Below are positions 1,991 through 30,466 of a stretch of DNA of 64,000 nt, in pieces. The stretch is taken from assembly GCA_947454235.1 (NCBI GenBank), contig CANGIY010000003.1, forward strand, positions 124,001-188,000. The letters are read 5' to 3'. This DNA comes from Chitinophagaceae bacterium. GTDB taxonomy: Bacteria > Bacteroidota > Bacteroidia > Chitinophagales > Chitinophagaceae. A model generated the notes under the pieces. It saw nothing but the letters and a program-made list of their open reading frames with translations, did no database searches and was not told the origin of the DNA. Position numbers and translations under genes: made by a program. Each line of letters begins with the position of its first letter. Position 1 is the stretch's first letter.

Positions 1991-2157
1991 ATATCGGCAA
2001 GGTTTTTTATAAATGTATGACAATGTGACCCCAATGGGATCACTTGTAGTGACAAATTTAATTGTCAAAGGTTATGCCAGAAAGGAAAACCTGAAATATT
2101 TGCAGATATGGACCACAAATAACGGTAGATTTGTCACTAAAAGTAACTGCGCCGGTA

Positions 2158-3150
2158 CTAATTCAGCAAAATGGTGTGCTTGGAATTGAAGGAAACATTT
2201 TTGACGTTCCAGTCTATTCTACGTTCAAAATCACTTTTTCGCTCGGCACAGTTTTTCAAAGTACATACTGCACAGCATTGCGGTAGGCAACCATCGGTAT
2301 GCACAAACATTTCAACATGCTCTCCAAAGTTCTCGCGCACCATGTTTTCCAGGCTCTTAACCTCTTCGTGCCCCTCGTTGATATTCATGTACCAAGGTAT
2401 TGTAAGGTGGCAATCGAGATGCAGTATAGAACCGTACTTGATAATGCGTAAGTTATGGATGTCCATCCAGTTTGCCCTTCTGTGTTCGCCTAAGTACTTC
2501 ACTACATTTTCAAGTAACTCAATATCGGCTTCATCCATAATGCCTGCAATTGAGCCCCGTAGTATTTTATACCCCGAAATAAATATAACGACTGCAAATA
2601 CCATTGAAATCACACTGTCGATCCAGCTATAGCCTGTATAATACAAAGCGACCAGCCCTACAATAATGCCTAAAGTCCCATAGGTATCAGATTGCATGTG
2701 CTTACCTGAGGCAACTAGCGCAAGGTTATTATTCTGCCTCCCTTTACGAATAGCAAAAATGCCCAAAATGAAATTAAAAAATGCAGTAGCTGCAACCAGA
2801 TAAATTCCAAAATCGAGCTTATGAAAACTATGCGGATGTGCCAAATTATCGAGAGCCTCAAACACAATGAGGAAGCAGGAAGCTACCATCATAATGCCCT
2901 CAAATGCAGCCGAAACAAATTCTGCCTTACCATGCCCGTAAGGGTGGTTTTCGTCGCGGGGTTGGGAAGAAAGATATAAAGAATACAGCCCTACAAAACC
3001 CGCAATTACATTGATGGTGTACTCAAGTGCATCGGTAAGTATGGCGACACTGTGCGTAAAAGTCCATGCCGCAATCTTAACCATGAATATCAGCGATGTG
3101 ATAATGCTGATTTTCTTCTGGAAGCTAAAATTTTCGTCGGCACGTGTCAT
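2158..3150 (-). CDS. Cation diffusion facilitator (CDF) family transporter with Cys-rich C-terminus
   Basis: ORF 330 aa; multi-TM, HPYGHGKAEFVSA motif, SWIDSVISM, C-terminal CLPQCCAVCTLKNC. Confidence 0.88.
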   Translation of the reverse strand: MTRADENFSFQKKISIITSLIFMVKIAAWTFTHSVAILTDALEYTINVIAGFVGLYSLYLSSQPRDENHPYGHGKAEFVSAAFEGIMMVASCFLIVFEALDNLAHPHSFHKLDFGIYLVAATAFFNFILGIFAIRKGRQNNNLALVASGKHMQSDTYGTLGIIVGLVALYYTGYSWIDSVISMVFAVVIFISGYKILRGSIAGIMDEADIELLENVVKYLGEHRRANWMDIHNLRIIKYGSILHLDCHLTIPWYMNINEGHEEVKSLENMVRENFGEHVEMFVHTDGCLPQCCAVCTLKNCAERKSDFERRIDWNVKNVSFNSKHTILLN

Positions 3151-3251
3151 GTATTCTCTTTTTCAAAAAACGGACGGTAAAGGTACAAATGAACTGAATG
3201 CTATTTCTTATCAGACACCTAAAATTGAATTAAGTTTGTAAGAAAAAGAAA

Positions 3252-4886
3252 TTGACCACAGAAAATAGAAATACTGCTTTTGATAAGCTCGCCAATAAGT
3301 ATGGCGAAGTGATGCTTGTGCTGGTTTCTATTGTCTTCTATTGCCGTTCTTTATTTTTTCAACTTACCGGGCTCGATGATTTCATTTTATTAAAGCGCCT
3401 AGAAGAAAACAACAGCAACTTTCAAAGCCTGACTCGTGTTTTTAAACCCGGTAGCTATGGTCCTTGGGTGAGTTACTACCGTCCGGTGTTTTACGATACC
3501 ATTATTCTCAATTATTTGGGCTTCGGTAGCGGACCATTTTCCTATCACCTGGTCAATGTTTTTTTGCATGCGCTTGTGGCTTGGGTAGTGATGAATCTAT
3601 TGCAACAACTCCATTTCACAAAAAGACAAGCATTTGTTCTTTCACTCATTTACGCATTACACCCTTTAATGACGCAGGCGGTTTGTTGGATTCCAGGGCG
3701 CAATGACCTGCTGCTGGGACTTTTTACATTTTCTTATTGCTACAACTCCATTGAATACAGTATCACAAACCACAGAAAGAACATTTTTCTGGCTGTTGTT
3801 TTTTTAGCTCTGGCACTTTTCACCAAGGAAGCGGCTTTGATGGCTCCATTGGGGCTCACGGCACTATTGGTGTTCAGGCATGGGCTGCAACAATTTAAGA
3901 AAGAGATATTGCCCCATATCACCGTTGCCGCCATAGGCTGGTGTTTGATATTTATTGCACGTTACTTACATGCGCCCGCACACCTTGTGGGCGGCAAACA
4001 GGGTATCCTTTCCAACATTTGGGTACATAAGTACGTGCCCTTTTTCTACCTGGGAAAGATTGTTGCGCCATTTAATTTAGGCACATTTCCGGCAATGGCA
4101 TCAAAAGATTTACATGTAATCATCGGTGGGTTAGCAATTTCATTGCTGTCGGCACTCGTCATACGCAAAAAATTATCAGCACAATATGCTGTTGGCGGTT
4201 TACTATTTTTTGGTGCATTTATTATCCCTTTTATCATTAGCCACGATGCCTTGATTGGCAAACCTTTGTACGAACACAGAATGTATATTCCGCTATTAGG
4301 TGTATTAATTGTGGCTGGAAAATTACTTAACAGTGTCTCAGGGGCAGGCCGTAAATTTACTATTGCCTTTGCTACCTTCGTTTTAGCTTACTTTACGATC
4401 GCGGGTCAAGTCCACCAATCTGATTTTTCAAATTCGTATTCTTTTTGGAAAAAATCTGTTGAAAATGCACCCAATAACCCCAGGACAAATTTATCGTTCG
4501 CTTTGCAACAGTTGAACAATGAAGCTGAAGCCATCAAATACATTTCACGAGCAGAAAAGCTATCGCCTAATGAGCATTTATTGCAATTTTCCAAAGGCGT
4601 AGTTTATATGCAACACGGCAAATTTGATTTAGCTGATTCTGCCTTTAAACGCGAGCTTGCAACCACAAAATATTACGAATGTTACTTCTACCTAAGTAAA
4701 ATTGCCTTTGACAAGAATGATTTCAACAAAGCAGTAGCGTTTTTGATGGTGTACAACGATCGCAACCCCTACTATTCATTGCAATACAAGCACGAACTCA
4801 ATCAAAAACTTGCAACTGCCCAAAATGGCGAGCAACTAATGGCCGCATTGTACGCAAAAAAAATGCAGTGCTATTTTGAAAACTAA
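3252..4886 (+). CDS. Multi-TM glycosyltransferase-like protein with C-terminal TPR region (TMTC/PMT-like)
   Basis: ORF 544 aa; GLDD near N-term, HALVAWVV..., HPLMTQAVCWIPGRNDLL, EHRMYIPLLG, TPR-like C-terminus; apparent TTG start, an internal ATG is possible. Confidence 0.7.
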   Translation: MTTENRNTAFDKLANKYGEVMLVLVSIVFYCRSLFFQLTGLDDFILLKRLEENNSNFQSLTRVFKPGSYGPWVSYYRPVFYDTIILNYLGFGSGPFSYHLVNVFLHALVAWVVMNLLQQLHFTKRQAFVLSLIYALHPLMTQAVCWIPGRNDLLLGLFTFSYCYNSIEYSITNHRKNIFLAVVFLALALFTKEAALMAPLGLTALLVFRHGLQQFKKEILPHITVAAIGWCLIFIARYLHAPAHLVGGKQGILSNIWVHKYVPFFYLGKIVAPFNLGTFPAMASKDLHVIIGGLAISLLSALVIRKKLSAQYAVGGLLFFGAFIIPFIISHDALIGKPLYEHRMYIPLLGVLIVAGKLLNSVSGAGRKFTIAFATFVLAYFTIAGQVHQSDFSNSYSFWKKSVENAPNNPRTNLSFALQQLNNEAEAIKYISRAEKLSPNEHLLQFSKGVVYMQHGKFDLADSAFKRELATTKYYECYFYLSKIAFDKNDFNKAVAFLMVYNDRNPYYSLQYKHELNQKLATAQNGEQLMAALYAKKMQCYFEN

Positions 4887-10369: not shown

Positions 10370-10780
10370 TTAGAGCAAAGTTGCTTTCACTGCTTTCTCG
10401 CAGTTGAACAATTTTGTAACAAGACAAGCTTCTAAAGCTGCTTGCGCCATTTCAGCAAATTTCTCAGCAGTAATGCCCGGAACTTTACCCGATACGCTTA
10501 ATTCACTCATTGTAATAGTGCCGTTGTCAAGTGTAATGTCGCAACGTGTTGAAATCTCATCAGGAGTAATGCCTTCAGCATTCAACATAAAAGTGAGTTT
10601 CATTGTGTAACAACCAGCGTGTGCTGATGCGATTAACTCTTCAGGGTTAGTACCGATACCATCAGCAAACCTGCTTGAGAAAGAATATTGAGTTTTATTT
10701 AAAACAGTGCTCTGTGTAGTGATGTGACCAGAACCTTCTTTTCCTGTACCGTTCCAAACTGCGGTTGAATGCCTTTTCAT
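10370..10780 (-). CDS. OsmC family peroxiredoxin
   Basis: 136 aa; RFADGIGTNPEELIASAHAGCYTM, C-terminal ACLVTKLF. Confidence 0.9.
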   Translation of the reverse strand: MKRHSTAVWNGTGKEGSGHITTQSTVLNKTQYSFSSRFADGIGTNPEELIASAHAGCYTMKLTFMLNAEGITPDEISTRCDITLDNGTITMSELSVSGKVPGITAEKFAEMAQAALEACLVTKLFNCEKAVKATLL

Positions 10781-14017: not shown

Positions 14018-15355
14018 CTAAGACAACTCTATGCACTTATCGGGGTTATCAGCGGCATACCTGAAAACCAGATTCCTAATAAAATCATTATCCTGCAATG
14101 GCTCAATCACTGTTTCCAGATGGTCGAACGTTAGCACATCGACAGGCGAATGTGGCAGGTACCCCATACCCACAAAAATGCCTTCCTTCACCAATATGCA
14201 ACTCATCTCTTCCTGCTCTCTGCCTTCGTCAATGAGGGCAAACGTGGGTAACATCTGTTGAAGTTTCTTCAATGCCCTCCCCACCCGTGTGTTATATTCA
14301 TCTACCAAAACATGCTGTTCGCATGCACACCCCGATGACAGGTTGCACAAACGATTGCACAGCTCATAATCGCGTATCAGTTCCTTGAGCAAATTTTGCC
14401 CTTCTATCAGTGTGTTGAACTTAAATACAGGCTTAATGGTTGCCTTCAGTTTTTCAATGGCAAATCGCTGAAATCCCTGTCTGTCTTCATACAACACCAA
14501 CCCAAATTGAGGCAAGTACCCCTTCTGGCTGCGGTTGTGTACCGGCCAAATACGCCTGATTTCCGCACTCTCGAGTATGTGCGCCATGAGCTCGGTGCCA
14601 CACTTTTTATAACTGATTGAACGGGTATCTTTTAAAAAATCTTGTTTCTGGCGGGTAATCTTGTTATTGGAAAAATGGCTTTTGACCCTTTGCTTGATGT
14701 TAACTGCCTTACCAACATAAATAATTTTTCCTGCCGCATTATAGAAATAATATACTCCGGGTGTTTCAGGCAATGCTGCCACCTGCTCCATTTTTACATT
14801 TGGCGGCAGGTAGTGTTCACCATTCTTGAGCTTGAGCATTTGAGCCATCGCTCCTTCGGTATCCTTTTCTACCAATATTTTTAGTAAGTCGGCAGTAGCA
14901 AGTGCATCGCCGCCCGCACGGTGCGCCACCCCATGGTTAATGCCTAACTGAGCAGTAAGCTTACCCAAGCTGTAGCCATTCATACCCGGCAATACCTTAC
15001 GGGCATACCGTACCGTACACAACTTGCGCGCGTACAATTCATACCCCGCCAAATCAAGCTGGTGCTTTACGAATGAATAATCGAAGTTCACATTGTGCGC
15101 CACAAACACCTTGTCTTCCAGCATCTCGTAAATCTTACCCGCAACATCGCCAAAACTGGGAGCCGTTGCCACCATCTCATCGTTGATGCCAGTGAGTTTC
15201 TGAATAAAGAAAGGAATAGGCTGGTGCGGATTGATGAGCGTCTCGTAATAATCGACCACCTCTTTACCGTCATGCACCACAATAGCAATCTCGGTAATGC
15301 AATTCGCCGACGCATAACCACCCGTAGTTTCAATATCTACAACCGCAAATAGCAT
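14018..15355 (-). CDS. Fusion of DEDDh 3'-5' exonuclease (DnaQ-like) and GIY-YIG (UvrC/Cho-like) nuclease
   Basis: 445 aa; FAVVDIETTG, FVAHNVNFDYSF, HRAGGDALATADL, then GVYYFYNAAGKIIYVGKAVNIKQRVKSHF. Confidence 0.92.
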   Translation of the reverse strand: MLFAVVDIETTGGYASANCITEIAIVVHDGKEVVDYYETLINPHQPIPFFIQKLTGINDEMVATAPSFGDVAGKIYEMLEDKVFVAHNVNFDYSFVKHQLDLAGYELYARKLCTVRYARKVLPGMNGYSLGKLTAQLGINHGVAHRAGGDALATADLLKILVEKDTEGAMAQMLKLKNGEHYLPPNVKMEQVAALPETPGVYYFYNAAGKIIYVGKAVNIKQRVKSHFSNNKITRQKQDFLKDTRSISYKKCGTELMAHILESAEIRRIWPVHNRSQKGYLPQFGLVLYEDRQGFQRFAIEKLKATIKPVFKFNTLIEGQNLLKELIRDYELCNRLCNLSSGCACEQHVLVDEYNTRVGRALKKLQQMLPTFALIDEGREQEEMSCILVKEGIFVGMGYLPHSPVDVLTFDHLETVIEPLQDNDFIRNLVFRYAADNPDKCIELS

Positions 15356-15400: not shown

Positions 15401-17998
15401 TTAGTAGGCAACTGCCAAATCGAGGGCACGAAGAATCGATTCTCTTTGTTCGCTTAATACAATTAGATTATACAGCCCTTCAAATTCATCTGAAATGCCA
15501 TCAGACTGATTTTCTTGTATCCTTCCAGCCCCAGTTGGCTCAATTTTATTATTAAGCAACTCATTAAAACGAACAGAAATTCCTCCTCCTTTTGCTACTG
15601 CCAATAAATATTGTGCAATGAAACTACAGCTATTATTATCGAGACTTTTAAAAGCGGCTCCATTGACATAAGACGCCAAAGCTAATTTCTTGACGAAATG
15701 ATACCTATAATAAAACACCCTAATTTGCCGTGGAGTTAAAAATTCGGACTCTTGCATAAGTCTTTGAAGCATCTTCTTTTCACTAGCATTAACCGCAAAA
15801 CTCTTCGTTTCTACGGTCGTATTTTTGACATTATTTGTTTGACCGTTGCTGGCATTGAAATTGTTCTCATTCAAATTGATTTCTGGCTCTTCATCACTTT
15901 CAACGATTTTTTGACTTTGATGTGGTCCTCTAGCTCCATCTGCTTGATTTAAGTCAATTGCTAAATCTGCCTTTATAATCGAATTCAAAATATCTAAACG
16001 ATCTTTTGCACCCAATTGACCCAAGTTTATACCAAACAAAAAAAGTTTGTCGAAATACTCATTTTGCAAGTCATCGAAGTTGTTTTTTTCCCATGACCCT
16101 TCTTCTTTACTTACCCTCGTTGTATTTTGTAATAAATACCTGTATTTATCAGATAGGGCCGTTTTAAGAATTCGTTGATCTATAGCGGCAACCACCATAA
16201 TACTTTCACTCAATTCTTGATTTTCAAGCATCACACGCAATGAATCAATTATCTTGATGATGTTTTTTTCATCGCACCTGTCTATATCTTCAACAAAAAG
16301 GAAAATTCTCTTTTGCGCTTTAACTTTGCCCCAAATATTCTCATTCCAGGCTCGCACCAAAAAAACAAGTTCCTTTTCAATTTCGTTTTGGGCTCCTAAT
16401 AGACTTGAAAATGAAGTCTTAGAATAGTACTCATTAAATAAATCACGCGCCCTACCTTTGAATTTTGCAATTGACCTTATCTTTAAATATAGAAAAAAAA
16501 CACTAAAGACGACAGAAGTATACTTAGAAAGCAAACTTGTCATTAATTCAATTTTAGTTGTAAAACTTAAAGTAGCCCAAAAAAGTGCTGCTAAAAACGG
16601 AATAAAATCAATCCAAAACCTAAGTCGCCCTTTTCTAATAACGTTCAATTTGATTCTACGGTATACTAAATTAATTGAATCGCAAATTCGAATTCCTATT
16701 TTTTTCAGCGCAGAATGGCTTCCTGATTTTGCAAACACCTTCGAATCCTCAAAATAGGAGATTGAAAACTGCTCATATAAATACGCCCAAGTCGCAGGTG
16801 TATCTTGATATTTCCAAGTTAGAAAATCAACGCGCTTGTTTTCATCAGACTTTTTTTCCAATACTTCCCACAATTCTGAAATAAACCTTGATTTACCTCT
16901 TCCCCAGCGTCCGAATACTCCAACCATTGCGCCTTTTTCATTATTTGGAATTCTAATTAAGACTTCAGAAAAATCCCTAGCCATCTCTTTAACTCCCAGA
17001 ACGGATTCAATTCCATTGTCTCTGATATTTATATTTGACGCATCTGACGCAAAACCGACCTGCTCTTGTTGCGCATAATCTCTAATTTGAGCATCTTCAT
17101 ATTCAGACAATTTAACTAGACATTTACCTTCATACTCAAAAATCCTTTTGGGAATATAGTCGAAATCCACCTCATGTGTTAGATTGAAAGATCGAAAATA
17201 TTCCCTATTGTCCTCAAATACAAGCAAGTGAACACTATCGATTACTCTATTTCGTATCAAGACCATAGATCTTAAAACAGTTCGGCTTGTAGAAACTACG
17301 ACCCAAATTGATTCCCCCTCCCGAAGAATTGATCCTATTTCATTTTGGGGATTATCAATCCCTCTACAAAAATCAGATTCGACTCTTACTATTTCGTTAG
17401 ACACATTAAAAATGCCAGGTTCATCTAAAACTAAACACCAACTCCTTGTCTCTTTACTTTGATTTGTTGTTTGGCTTGCTGGCTTCAAATCCTCCTCATC
17501 TGAATTTTCTATGGTATTTCGTTCTTTATCGGAATTAACACCTCTAACTATATTTGAAAAAATCGTTTCTTCAAGAGTGTAAACCATAAAGAATGGTGGC
17601 TGTGCTTCCAAAATTCTTTTATATAACTTATACACATCCACCGGATCGAGGCGCCCAGCACCTGTCCCTAACAAAGGGAGTGCAACAGTTCTAATTTTCG
17701 AGTTGTTTCGACAATGTTTTGCAATATTCTGGACAATTTCTTCAATGTATTCGAATTTTGAGTAGTCATTATCAACCGCTGTGGCAAACCCAACTTCAAA
17801 TTCATTTCTAGTTGATGAATTTACTTGAATATAATCCACCGAACCCAGTTCTCTGTATTCAAGTCGTTCGTTTAATTGAACTCCCAAACTTGAAAGACCG
17901 TTTTTCATGGGTGCTGTCATTGTAGCAGTTGTACTACGTGAAACGACATATAAATCCGCGTAACCAGCGAACAAATCATCATTAAACAACTTAATCAT
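15401..17998 (-). CDS. Macro-like N-terminal domain fused to KAP family P-loop NTPase with inserted TM segments
   Basis: 865 aa; N-term ...IRTVALPLLGTGAGRLDP; Walker A GVFGRWGRGKSRF, two hydrophobic segments, Walker B RIFLFVEDIDRCDEKN; order matches KAP NTPases. Confidence 0.8.
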   Translation of the reverse strand: MIKLFNDDLFAGYADLYVVSRSTTATMTAPMKNGLSSLGVQLNERLEYRELGSVDYIQVNSSTRNEFEVGFATAVDNDYSKFEYIEEIVQNIAKHCRNNSKIRTVALPLLGTGAGRLDPVDVYKLYKRILEAQPPFFMVYTLEETIFSNIVRGVNSDKERNTIENSDEEDLKPASQTTNQSKETRSWCLVLDEPGIFNVSNEIVRVESDFCRGIDNPQNEIGSILREGESIWVVVSTSRTVLRSMVLIRNRVIDSVHLLVFEDNREYFRSFNLTHEVDFDYIPKRIFEYEGKCLVKLSEYEDAQIRDYAQQEQVGFASDASNINIRDNGIESVLGVKEMARDFSEVLIRIPNNEKGAMVGVFGRWGRGKSRFISELWEVLEKKSDENKRVDFLTWKYQDTPATWAYLYEQFSISYFEDSKVFAKSGSHSALKKIGIRICDSINLVYRRIKLNVIRKGRLRFWIDFIPFLAALFWATLSFTTKIELMTSLLSKYTSVVFSVFFLYLKIRSIAKFKGRARDLFNEYYSKTSFSSLLGAQNEIEKELVFLVRAWNENIWGKVKAQKRIFLFVEDIDRCDEKNIIKIIDSLRVMLENQELSESIMVVAAIDQRILKTALSDKYRYLLQNTTRVSKEEGSWEKNNFDDLQNEYFDKLFLFGINLGQLGAKDRLDILNSIIKADLAIDLNQADGARGPHQSQKIVESDEEPEINLNENNFNASNGQTNNVKNTTVETKSFAVNASEKKMLQRLMQESEFLTPRQIRVFYYRYHFVKKLALASYVNGAAFKSLDNNSCSFIAQYLLAVAKGGGISVRFNELLNNKIEPTGAGRIQENQSDGISDEFEGLYNLIVLSEQRESILRALDLAVAY

Positions 17999-29062: not shown

Positions 29063-30466
29063 ATGAGCAAAATGAACTGGGAACAACTTTTCAGTATTAA
29101 AAGAACAGGCGATTCAGGCAGCAAAAACCGTTATTTCGACCCGGTTCGCGATTCTTACCAACAAGACTACGACCGCATTATTTTTTCATCTCCCTTTCGT
29201 CGCCTCCAAAACAAAACGCAGGTATTCCCTTTGCCGGGGTCTGTTTTTGTACATAACCGCCTTACTCATAGTCTTGAAGTAACATCTGTTGGTCGTTCTT
29301 TAGGCAAAGCAGTAGGCATTGAAATATGGAAAAAACACGAAAAAAGCCTTTCTGAAACAGCAGCAGAATTCTACCGATACGAACTTCCTTCAGTAATTGC
29401 AGCTGCCTGCCTTTCGCATGATATAGGCAATCCGCCATTCGGGCACTCAGGCGAAGATGCCATCAGAAACTATTTTATTGAACTGGAGGGCAACCCTAAA
29501 AAAATTATTGAAAACAGCCTGAGTGCTTGCCAGTTAAAAGACTTCACCAATTTTGAAGGCAACTCAAATGCGCTGCGGGTATTAACCCACGCATTCAACA
29601 GCCCCGAGCAAGGTGGCCTCAAACTCACCTATGCAACTCTTGCTTCTATAGTAAAATACCCTTCAGATTCATTGTCAGGTTTTGACAAAAAGACCGGACT
29701 TATTTCTACTAAAAAGTCCGGCTTTTTTGACTCTGAAAGGCAAACATATCTCGACATTGCTGAAACATTAGGCATTCCTGCCCTGAATGAAAAAAAGACA
29801 ATTTTCTCCAGGCACCCATTTGTATATCTCACAGAAGCTGCCGACGATATCTGTTACCGGGTTATTGACCTGGAAGATGCGCACAGGCTTGGGATAGTGT
29901 CGTTCGAAACGTTCCTTGGCTTATTTCTTCCTTTCTTTAACGAAGGAGAAGAATTTGGCTCGCAAGGATATGTGCTCAAAAAAATCGCCAAATTTGATGA
30001 CGATCGCCAAAAAGCGCAATACATAAGAGCTGCCTGGATTGGGACCATGGTGCAGAAAATGACCGATGTTTTTATGGCTAACGAAGAGGCATTACTTAAT
30101 GGTACATTGCAAAAGGACCTCCTCGACTGCCTCCCTGAAAATGAACGCGGATATATTGATGCAATCAACAAATTCTCAATCAAAGAGATATACAATTACA
30201 AATCGGTGGTTGAAATTGAGTGCGCAGGTTTCAACATCATTGGCGGGCTACTGAAAGAATTCATCAGTGGATTGCTTGCACCAACCACCAACAGATCTAA
30301 AAAACTACTGCAGCTCGTCTCTAAACAGTTTATTGTTCAGCGTCGTCCCGATACATTATACAATGACATTCACTCTGTTGTTGACTTCATAAGTGGTATG
30401 ACAGACCTTTATGCAATTGATTTGTACCGAAAAATATCGGGTATAGCCATTCCTGAAATTAAATAA
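29063..30466 (+). CDS. dgt: Deoxyguanosinetriphosphate triphosphohydrolase (HD domain)
   Basis: SPFRRLQNKTQVFPL, HNRLTHSLEVTSVGR, CLSHDIGNPPFGHSGE. Confidence 0.94.
   Translation: MSKMNWEQLFSIKRTGDSGSKNRYFDPVRDSYQQDYDRIIFSSPFRRLQNKTQVFPLPGSVFVHNRLTHSLEVTSVGRSLGKAVGIEIWKKHEKSLSETAAEFYRYELPSVIAAACLSHDIGNPPFGHSGEDAIRNYFIELEGNPKKIIENSLSACQLKDFTNFEGNSNALRVLTHAFNSPEQGGLKLTYATLASIVKYPSDSLSGFDKKTGLISTKKSGFFDSERQTYLDIAETLGIPALNEKKTIFSRHPFVYLTEAADDICYRVIDLEDAHRLGIVSFETFLGLFLPFFNEGEEFGSQGYVLKKIAKFDDDRQKAQYIRAAWIGTMVQKMTDVFMANEEALLNGTLQKDLLDCLPENERGYIDAINKFSIKEIYNYKSVVEIECAGFNIIGGLLKEFISGLLAPTTNRSKKLLQLVSKQFIVQRRPDTLYNDIHSVVDFISGMTDLYAIDLYRKISGIAIPEIK

Follow-up and report, generated by a model that had tools for sequence, protein, structure and literature searches.

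A macro-headed KAP NTPase with a predicted membrane hairpin in a Chitinophagaceae genome: a candidate single-protein immune receptor

Anti-phage systems repeatedly include KAP NTPases (Qat, PifA, Tmn), whose mechanism is largely obscure. The locus described here raises the question of what a KAP protein does when a macro domain stands at its N-terminus. In a 64,000-nucleotide stretch of a Chitinophagaceae bacterium genome (contig CANGIY010000003.1, positions 124,001 to 188,000; hereafter the window), an uninterrupted ORF of 865 amino acids at 15401..17998 on the minus strand was confirmed. ORF and Pfam analyses divided the protein into a macro head, an unassigned middle region and a KAP NTPase with a predicted membrane hairpin. 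We give a probability of about 50% to the reading that it is a single-protein, NLR-like anti-phage immune receptor in which a macro sensor head is joined to a membrane KAP ATPase. The first-pass annotation had proposed a membrane-anchored NTPase gated by an ADP-ribose-like nucleotide, possibly anti-phage; its macro fold, KAP core, solitary gene and likely defence role stood, and the finding proved wider than first noticed, the protein belonging to a clade with interchangeable heads.

The KAP NTPase core (residues 338 to 680; 15959..16987, minus strand) was delimited by Pfam and clade alignments. We found that the Pfam model KAP_NTPase (PF07693) matched residues 348 to 621 with an E value of 1.3e-12 and 48.1 bits, above its gathering score of 20. 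When the window core was aligned with 40 relatives, the GxWGRGK of the Walker A motif GVFGRWGRGKSRF (residues 360 to 372; 16883..16921, minus strand) and the DxDRC of the Walker B motif LFVEDIDRCDEKN (residues 567 to 579; 16262..16300, minus strand) were invariant in all 41 sequences, and the positions first given for the two motifs were right to within a few bases. Between them, hydropathy and the structural model predicted a two-helix membrane insertion (residues 461 to 511; 16466..16618, minus strand), as in the KAP family, with hydrophobic segments at residues 465 to 479 and 493 to 507 and two long helices in the model of the core (pLDDT 77). Nearly all relatives had a hydrophobic insertion at this place, usually of two helices by hydropathy. 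The Pfam score, the hydrophobic segments and the modelled helices thus bore out the proposed KAP P-loop NTPase with a predicted membrane insertion.

The best Foldseek match of the KAP half was RdrA, the RADAR ring ATPase (E value of 8e-4, TM-score of about 0.3 to 0.4 on the query), and the core model was also near Orc/Cdc6-type AAA+ proteins, weakly and with low TM-scores. Since these matches are weak and low in TM-score, we only infer that the KAP core may form a ring. In the C-terminal helical part, clade alignment revealed the motif TPRQIRVFYYRY (15701..15736, minus strand), in which Thr-Pro-Arg is invariant. The protein ends in LDLAVAY (15404..15424, minus strand), and the terminal tyrosine is conserved in the clade: 32 of the 40 members of full length have it as the last residue before the stop codon, usually within [IV]-[AP]-Y, at an overall identity near 30%. 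Among the C-termini compared (relatives L015 to L067), proteobacterial members frequently end in L or I. The clade resembles the KAP family in its P-loop, its DxDRC Walker B motif and the membrane segments between Walker A and B, but has invariants of its own (a WKYQ-type motif, the Thr-Pro-Arg motif and the C-terminal tyrosine) and N-terminal heads that are exchanged.

The N-terminal 165 residues (17504..17998, minus strand) had been called macro-like. The Pfam Macro model scored 14.4 bits (E value of 0.036), below its gathering score of 22, as for a divergent domain. However, phmmer matched the head to the N-termini of two other proteins, L022 (E value of 4e-11) and L021 (E value of 5e-7), and a profile of four macro heads retrieved DarG proteins encoded in same-family genomes, at best with an E value of 4e-8. 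HHalign of the macro-head family against DarG macro domains gave a probability of 97.3% and an E value of 1.6e-11, compared with less than 1% for control pairs. The AlphaFold model of residues 1 to 165 had a pLDDT mostly of 80 to 96, and Foldseek matched the modelled head to solved macro domains of alphaviruses, DarG and TARG1 (E value of 2e-7, TM-score of 0.75 by target). As judged from sequence and model, residues 1 to 165 have a macro fold, and the structure prediction upheld the original assignment.

Alignment with the DarG macro domains of same-family genomes showed that the macro phosphate-binding loop (loop 2), LPLLGTGAGRLDP (residues 107 to 119; 17642..17680, minus strand), was kept, with PLLGTGAGRLDP as the retained loop, and that the NTVNT, MGKG and NFPTK motifs of DarG were missing. 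Since the catalytic motifs are lost and the phosphate loop is kept, a ligand reader fits better than a DarG-type hydrolase, and the head may be a sensor of an ADP-ribose-type signal. One of the DarG genes in the same-family genomes adjoins a 210-residue ORF that by eye resembles DarT.

The same type of macro head, at about 30% identity, was found in two LRR-Roc-TIR proteins (L022 and L112), and the beta-rich domain upstream of it is common to the KAP proteins L017 and L021. The two Roc proteins (L022, 7978-12012; L112, 6581-10636) consist of a beta-rich domain, macro, LRR, Roc(-COR) and TIR, KAP being replaced by a Roc GTPase and TIR. The occurrence of one macro head type on KAP and Roc-TIR proteins indicates that heads are common to different NTPase classes.

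The middle region (residues 170 to 320; 17039..17491, minus strand) is predicted to be beta-rich. As first noted, no family could be named for it: Pfam gave no match at E values up to 10, phmmer and HHalign found no relatives, and the AlphaFold pLDDT was below 50. One relative is a macro-EVE-KAP protein (L016; EVE by Pfam, E value of 4.5e-8), and L023/L024 are macro-EVE-like-KAP proteins whose EVE-like segment, judged by eye, lies at the same place as the window middle. From these two macro-headed lineages we guess that a PUA/EVE-like fold is possible for the middle region; the sequence searches gave this identity no support, nor did the low-pLDDT model.

Searches of genome and viral contigs with the full-length window protein found nothing, so the KAP-core alignment was needed to find relatives. 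It recovered 47 loci in Bacteroidota, Calditrichota, Gammaproteobacteria, Magnetococcales, Campylobacterota, Planctomycetes and others; the core belongs to a thinly spread clade of some 40 divergent proteins in several phyla. At an E value of 1e-20, members were present in 3 of 398 genomes of the phylum, and the viral contigs searched with the core alignment held none. The heads in the clade include macro, EVE, LRR, TPR, TIR, Clp_N, SF2 helicase, Schlafen-AlbA, HTH and others; those verified by Pfam are EVE, TIR_2, LRR, TPR, Clp_N, ResIII/Helicase_C, SLFN_AlbA_2 and HTH_3, and DUF5648 was also verified among members. A maximum-likelihood tree built from the core placed macro heads on three separate branches, LRR heads on three and TPR heads on two. 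The macro-headed L016 was nested among proteins with other heads with 99% support, and its macro domain is distantly related to that of the window protein (HHalign probability of 88%). Heads are therefore interchangeable over the KAP core; how many exchanges took place can be given only roughly, as support for the deep nodes is weak. A role of KAP proteins in defence is already known and the exchange of heads across the clade is the more interesting part; we found no description of it in the literature searched, which covered few subscription journals. One constant KAP module with many swapped heads offers a natural experiment for telling the sensing part from the acting part.

Some members differ in gene structure. 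In L057 (6017-9518), an NB-ARC ORF overlaps a TPR-KAP ORF, so that two NTPase classes lie around one TPR region; the two are perhaps a single frameshifted protein. In L069 (7401-9480) and L063 (3090-5201), the KAP gene is split into two ORFs, the second with the terminal tyrosine of the clade, and these are likely disrupted copies. In L027 (4602-13765), a KAP gene with a REase-like and EVE-like head is inserted into a type I restriction operon, with HsdM on one side and HsdS on the other.

In the receptor reading, the variable head would be the sensor and the KAP NTPase the constant part. The macro head would read an ADP-ribose-type signal, either a free nucleotide from TIR- or SIR2-type NADases or an ADP-ribosylated nucleic acid or protein. 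The KAP NTPase would probably form a ring, as RdrA-type ATPases do, and its two-helix hairpin would lie in the membrane. Once the head bound its ligand, the ATPase would be released and would then change or damage the membrane, and phage growth would stop. A macro-headed member of this kind would connect ADP-ribose signalling with a KAP membrane ATPase. More tentatively, and rather less probably than the receptor reading itself, the clade may consist of nucleotide-gated immune receptors of prokaryotes, each a single protein with an exchangeable head on a membrane-embedded KAP ATPase; the macro head would let an ADP-ribose-type second messenger open or disrupt the membrane directly. Against the receptor reading, the TIR and REase-like heads resemble effectors more than sensors, the window gene stands alone with no defence neighbour, and the middle region has no match.

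The neighbours of the relatives bear on the defence role that the first-pass annotation had raised as a possibility. Several relatives stand in verified defence loci. In L027 the order is HsdM-KAP-HsdS-HsdR, with intervals of 0 and 11 bases; in L029 a KAP gene of this kind comes after an HsdM fragment, and L056 has HsdM-HsdS-KAP in overlapping genes. Elsewhere, the order was McrB-McrC-KAP-HsdS-HsdM-Fic (L028), KAP beside McrC-McrB (L032 and L047), the Druantia-like HATPase-HATPase-DruA-KAP (L050), or PLD/SNF2 helicase and Eco57I methylase genes followed by KAP (L064). In L042, L046 and L052, KAP precedes EAD11 genes, and EAD11 adjoins LRR-headed copies. Counted together, some six or seven of the roughly 40 lineages have a defence-locus setting. 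Among 119 genomes of the phylum, McrC occurred 15 times and N6_Mtase was present in 105. Measured against that background, McrC within three genes of KAP in two lineages is far above chance; since N6_Mtase is common, the Hsd and methylase cases rest more on tight operon structure than on rarity. The presence of relatives inside HsdM/HsdS, McrBC-Hsd, DruA and Eco57I-helicase loci supports a defence role, which, with the low GC content of the window gene and its absence from the genus genomes searched, we consider likely.

An alternative reading is that the heads recognize modified or foreign nucleic acid (EVE modified bases, the SF2 helicase as a further reader, macro ADP-ribosylated DNA) and that the target of the KAP ATPase at the membrane is phage DNA, which it might, for instance, exclude or translocate. 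QatA, a KAP protein of the qatABCD defence operon, is reported to bind both ssDNA and dsDNA (PMC13279940), which fits this explanation. So do the EVE, helicase or REase-like heads on several relatives within restriction operons. DarG proteins, which act on ADP-ribosylated DNA, are also the closest macro relatives found, and TARG1 is among the fold matches. However, nucleic acid is not what LRR, TPR, TIR and Clp_N heads read, and the profile of four macro heads found no DarG-type gene elsewhere in the genome of the window, so we regard this explanation as possible and rather unlikely.

In STAND proteins, effectors are usually N-terminal. By analogy, the head could be an effector or an effector-docking module, with the KAP and C-terminal part detecting infection and the macro domain acting on or recruiting an ADP-ribosylated partner. 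Effector-like heads do exist in the clade (TIR in L030 by Pfam; REase-like in L027, L029 and L062 by eye), and the EAD11 genes beside LRR-headed copies point the same way. On the other hand, LRR and TPR heads are repeats of the sensor type, no variable sensor region is obvious in the conserved KAP-C-terminal part, and the macro head lacks the DarG catalytic motifs, which together make this arrangement improbable.

The receptor reading must also accommodate the setting of the window gene itself. The gene is intact and single-copy in its genome, and as first described it stands alone among ordinary genes, whose names were assigned by eye; by the same inspection, neither a defence gene nor an ADP-ribosyltransferase-like gene adjoins it. 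Its GC content of 35.6% is the lowest among the 35 ORFs of the window (mean of 42.5%, standard deviation of 2.2), and searches of eight other genomes of the genus did not find it. From its composition and its absence from these genomes, the gene looks foreign and acquired. A gene for a DnaQ-like exonuclease with a GIY-YIG/UvrC-like part, as judged by eye, lies 45 bases downstream (14018-15355); it was found in the eight other genus genomes at 65 to 68% identity with no KAP gene alongside. Because the surroundings of this flanking gene vary across the genus, we could not demonstrate a clean empty site. Plasmid and phage collections contained no match to the window protein, and viral contigs no copy or close relative of the gene; two other clade members had partial, weak matches on plasmids at just 24 to 25% identity. 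A cellular role apart from phage, for instance in envelope stress or in ADP-ribose signalling, the defence neighbours of relatives then arising by chance, would suit the window copy and the many relatives that likewise sit among ordinary genes, but is quite improbable given the low GC content, the rare and patchy accessory distribution (similarity of any level in 13 of 399 genomes of the family, besides the phylum count above) and the restriction genes that abut or overlap KAP in several unrelated lineages, against the McrC background.

KAP NTPases have been noted in counter-invader systems (PMC8195603, PMC10853773), where they can substitute for STAND NTPases (PMC8195603). Tmn, a defence protein of the KAP kind, has two transmembrane segments and a published anti-phage role (PMC11846954); compared by description only, it resembles the window protein in its ATPase and membrane segments, but no macro head was mentioned for it. 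QatA is likewise a KAP NTPase from a defence operon. PADLOC gave weak matches of the window protein to QatA, PifA, DarG and the ThsA macro domain. With equivalog models, the QatA score was 28.7 bits against a cut-off of 600, and qatBCD neighbours were not seen; the DarG score was 21.4 bits against a cut-off of 250, with no DarT-like neighbour by eye. DarG provides the closest macro relatives found, whereas the window head has lost the catalytic motifs, has no DarT partner and is fused to KAP.

The Thoeris analogy drawn at the outset held for function only, and assignment of the protein to Thoeris was rejected. ThsA effectors of the TM-macro type bind ADPR-type nucleotides through the macro domain and oligomerise (PMC11204291), and like the window protein they combine membrane segments with a macro domain. 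However, they have an N-terminal TM segment, a C-terminal macro domain and no NTPase, with partner TIR proteins encoded alongside, whereas in the window protein the macro domain is N-terminal and fused to a KAP ATPase, no TIR gene lies next to its gene, and its closest macro relatives found are of the DarG type. The TIR_2 matches of the genome lie on contigs C12 and C30, away from the gene on C3.

Elsewhere in the genome, contig C26 carries a degenerate KAP remnant with an internal stop (29750-30325; L119) and an N6_Mtase match at 10620. On contig C12 (L115), a gene at 400-2004 encodes a C-terminal TIR with a SIR2-like N-terminal part, as judged by eye, and is overlapped by a STAND-like NTPase gene at 1991-3298; the two likely form a further NAD-related defence pair.
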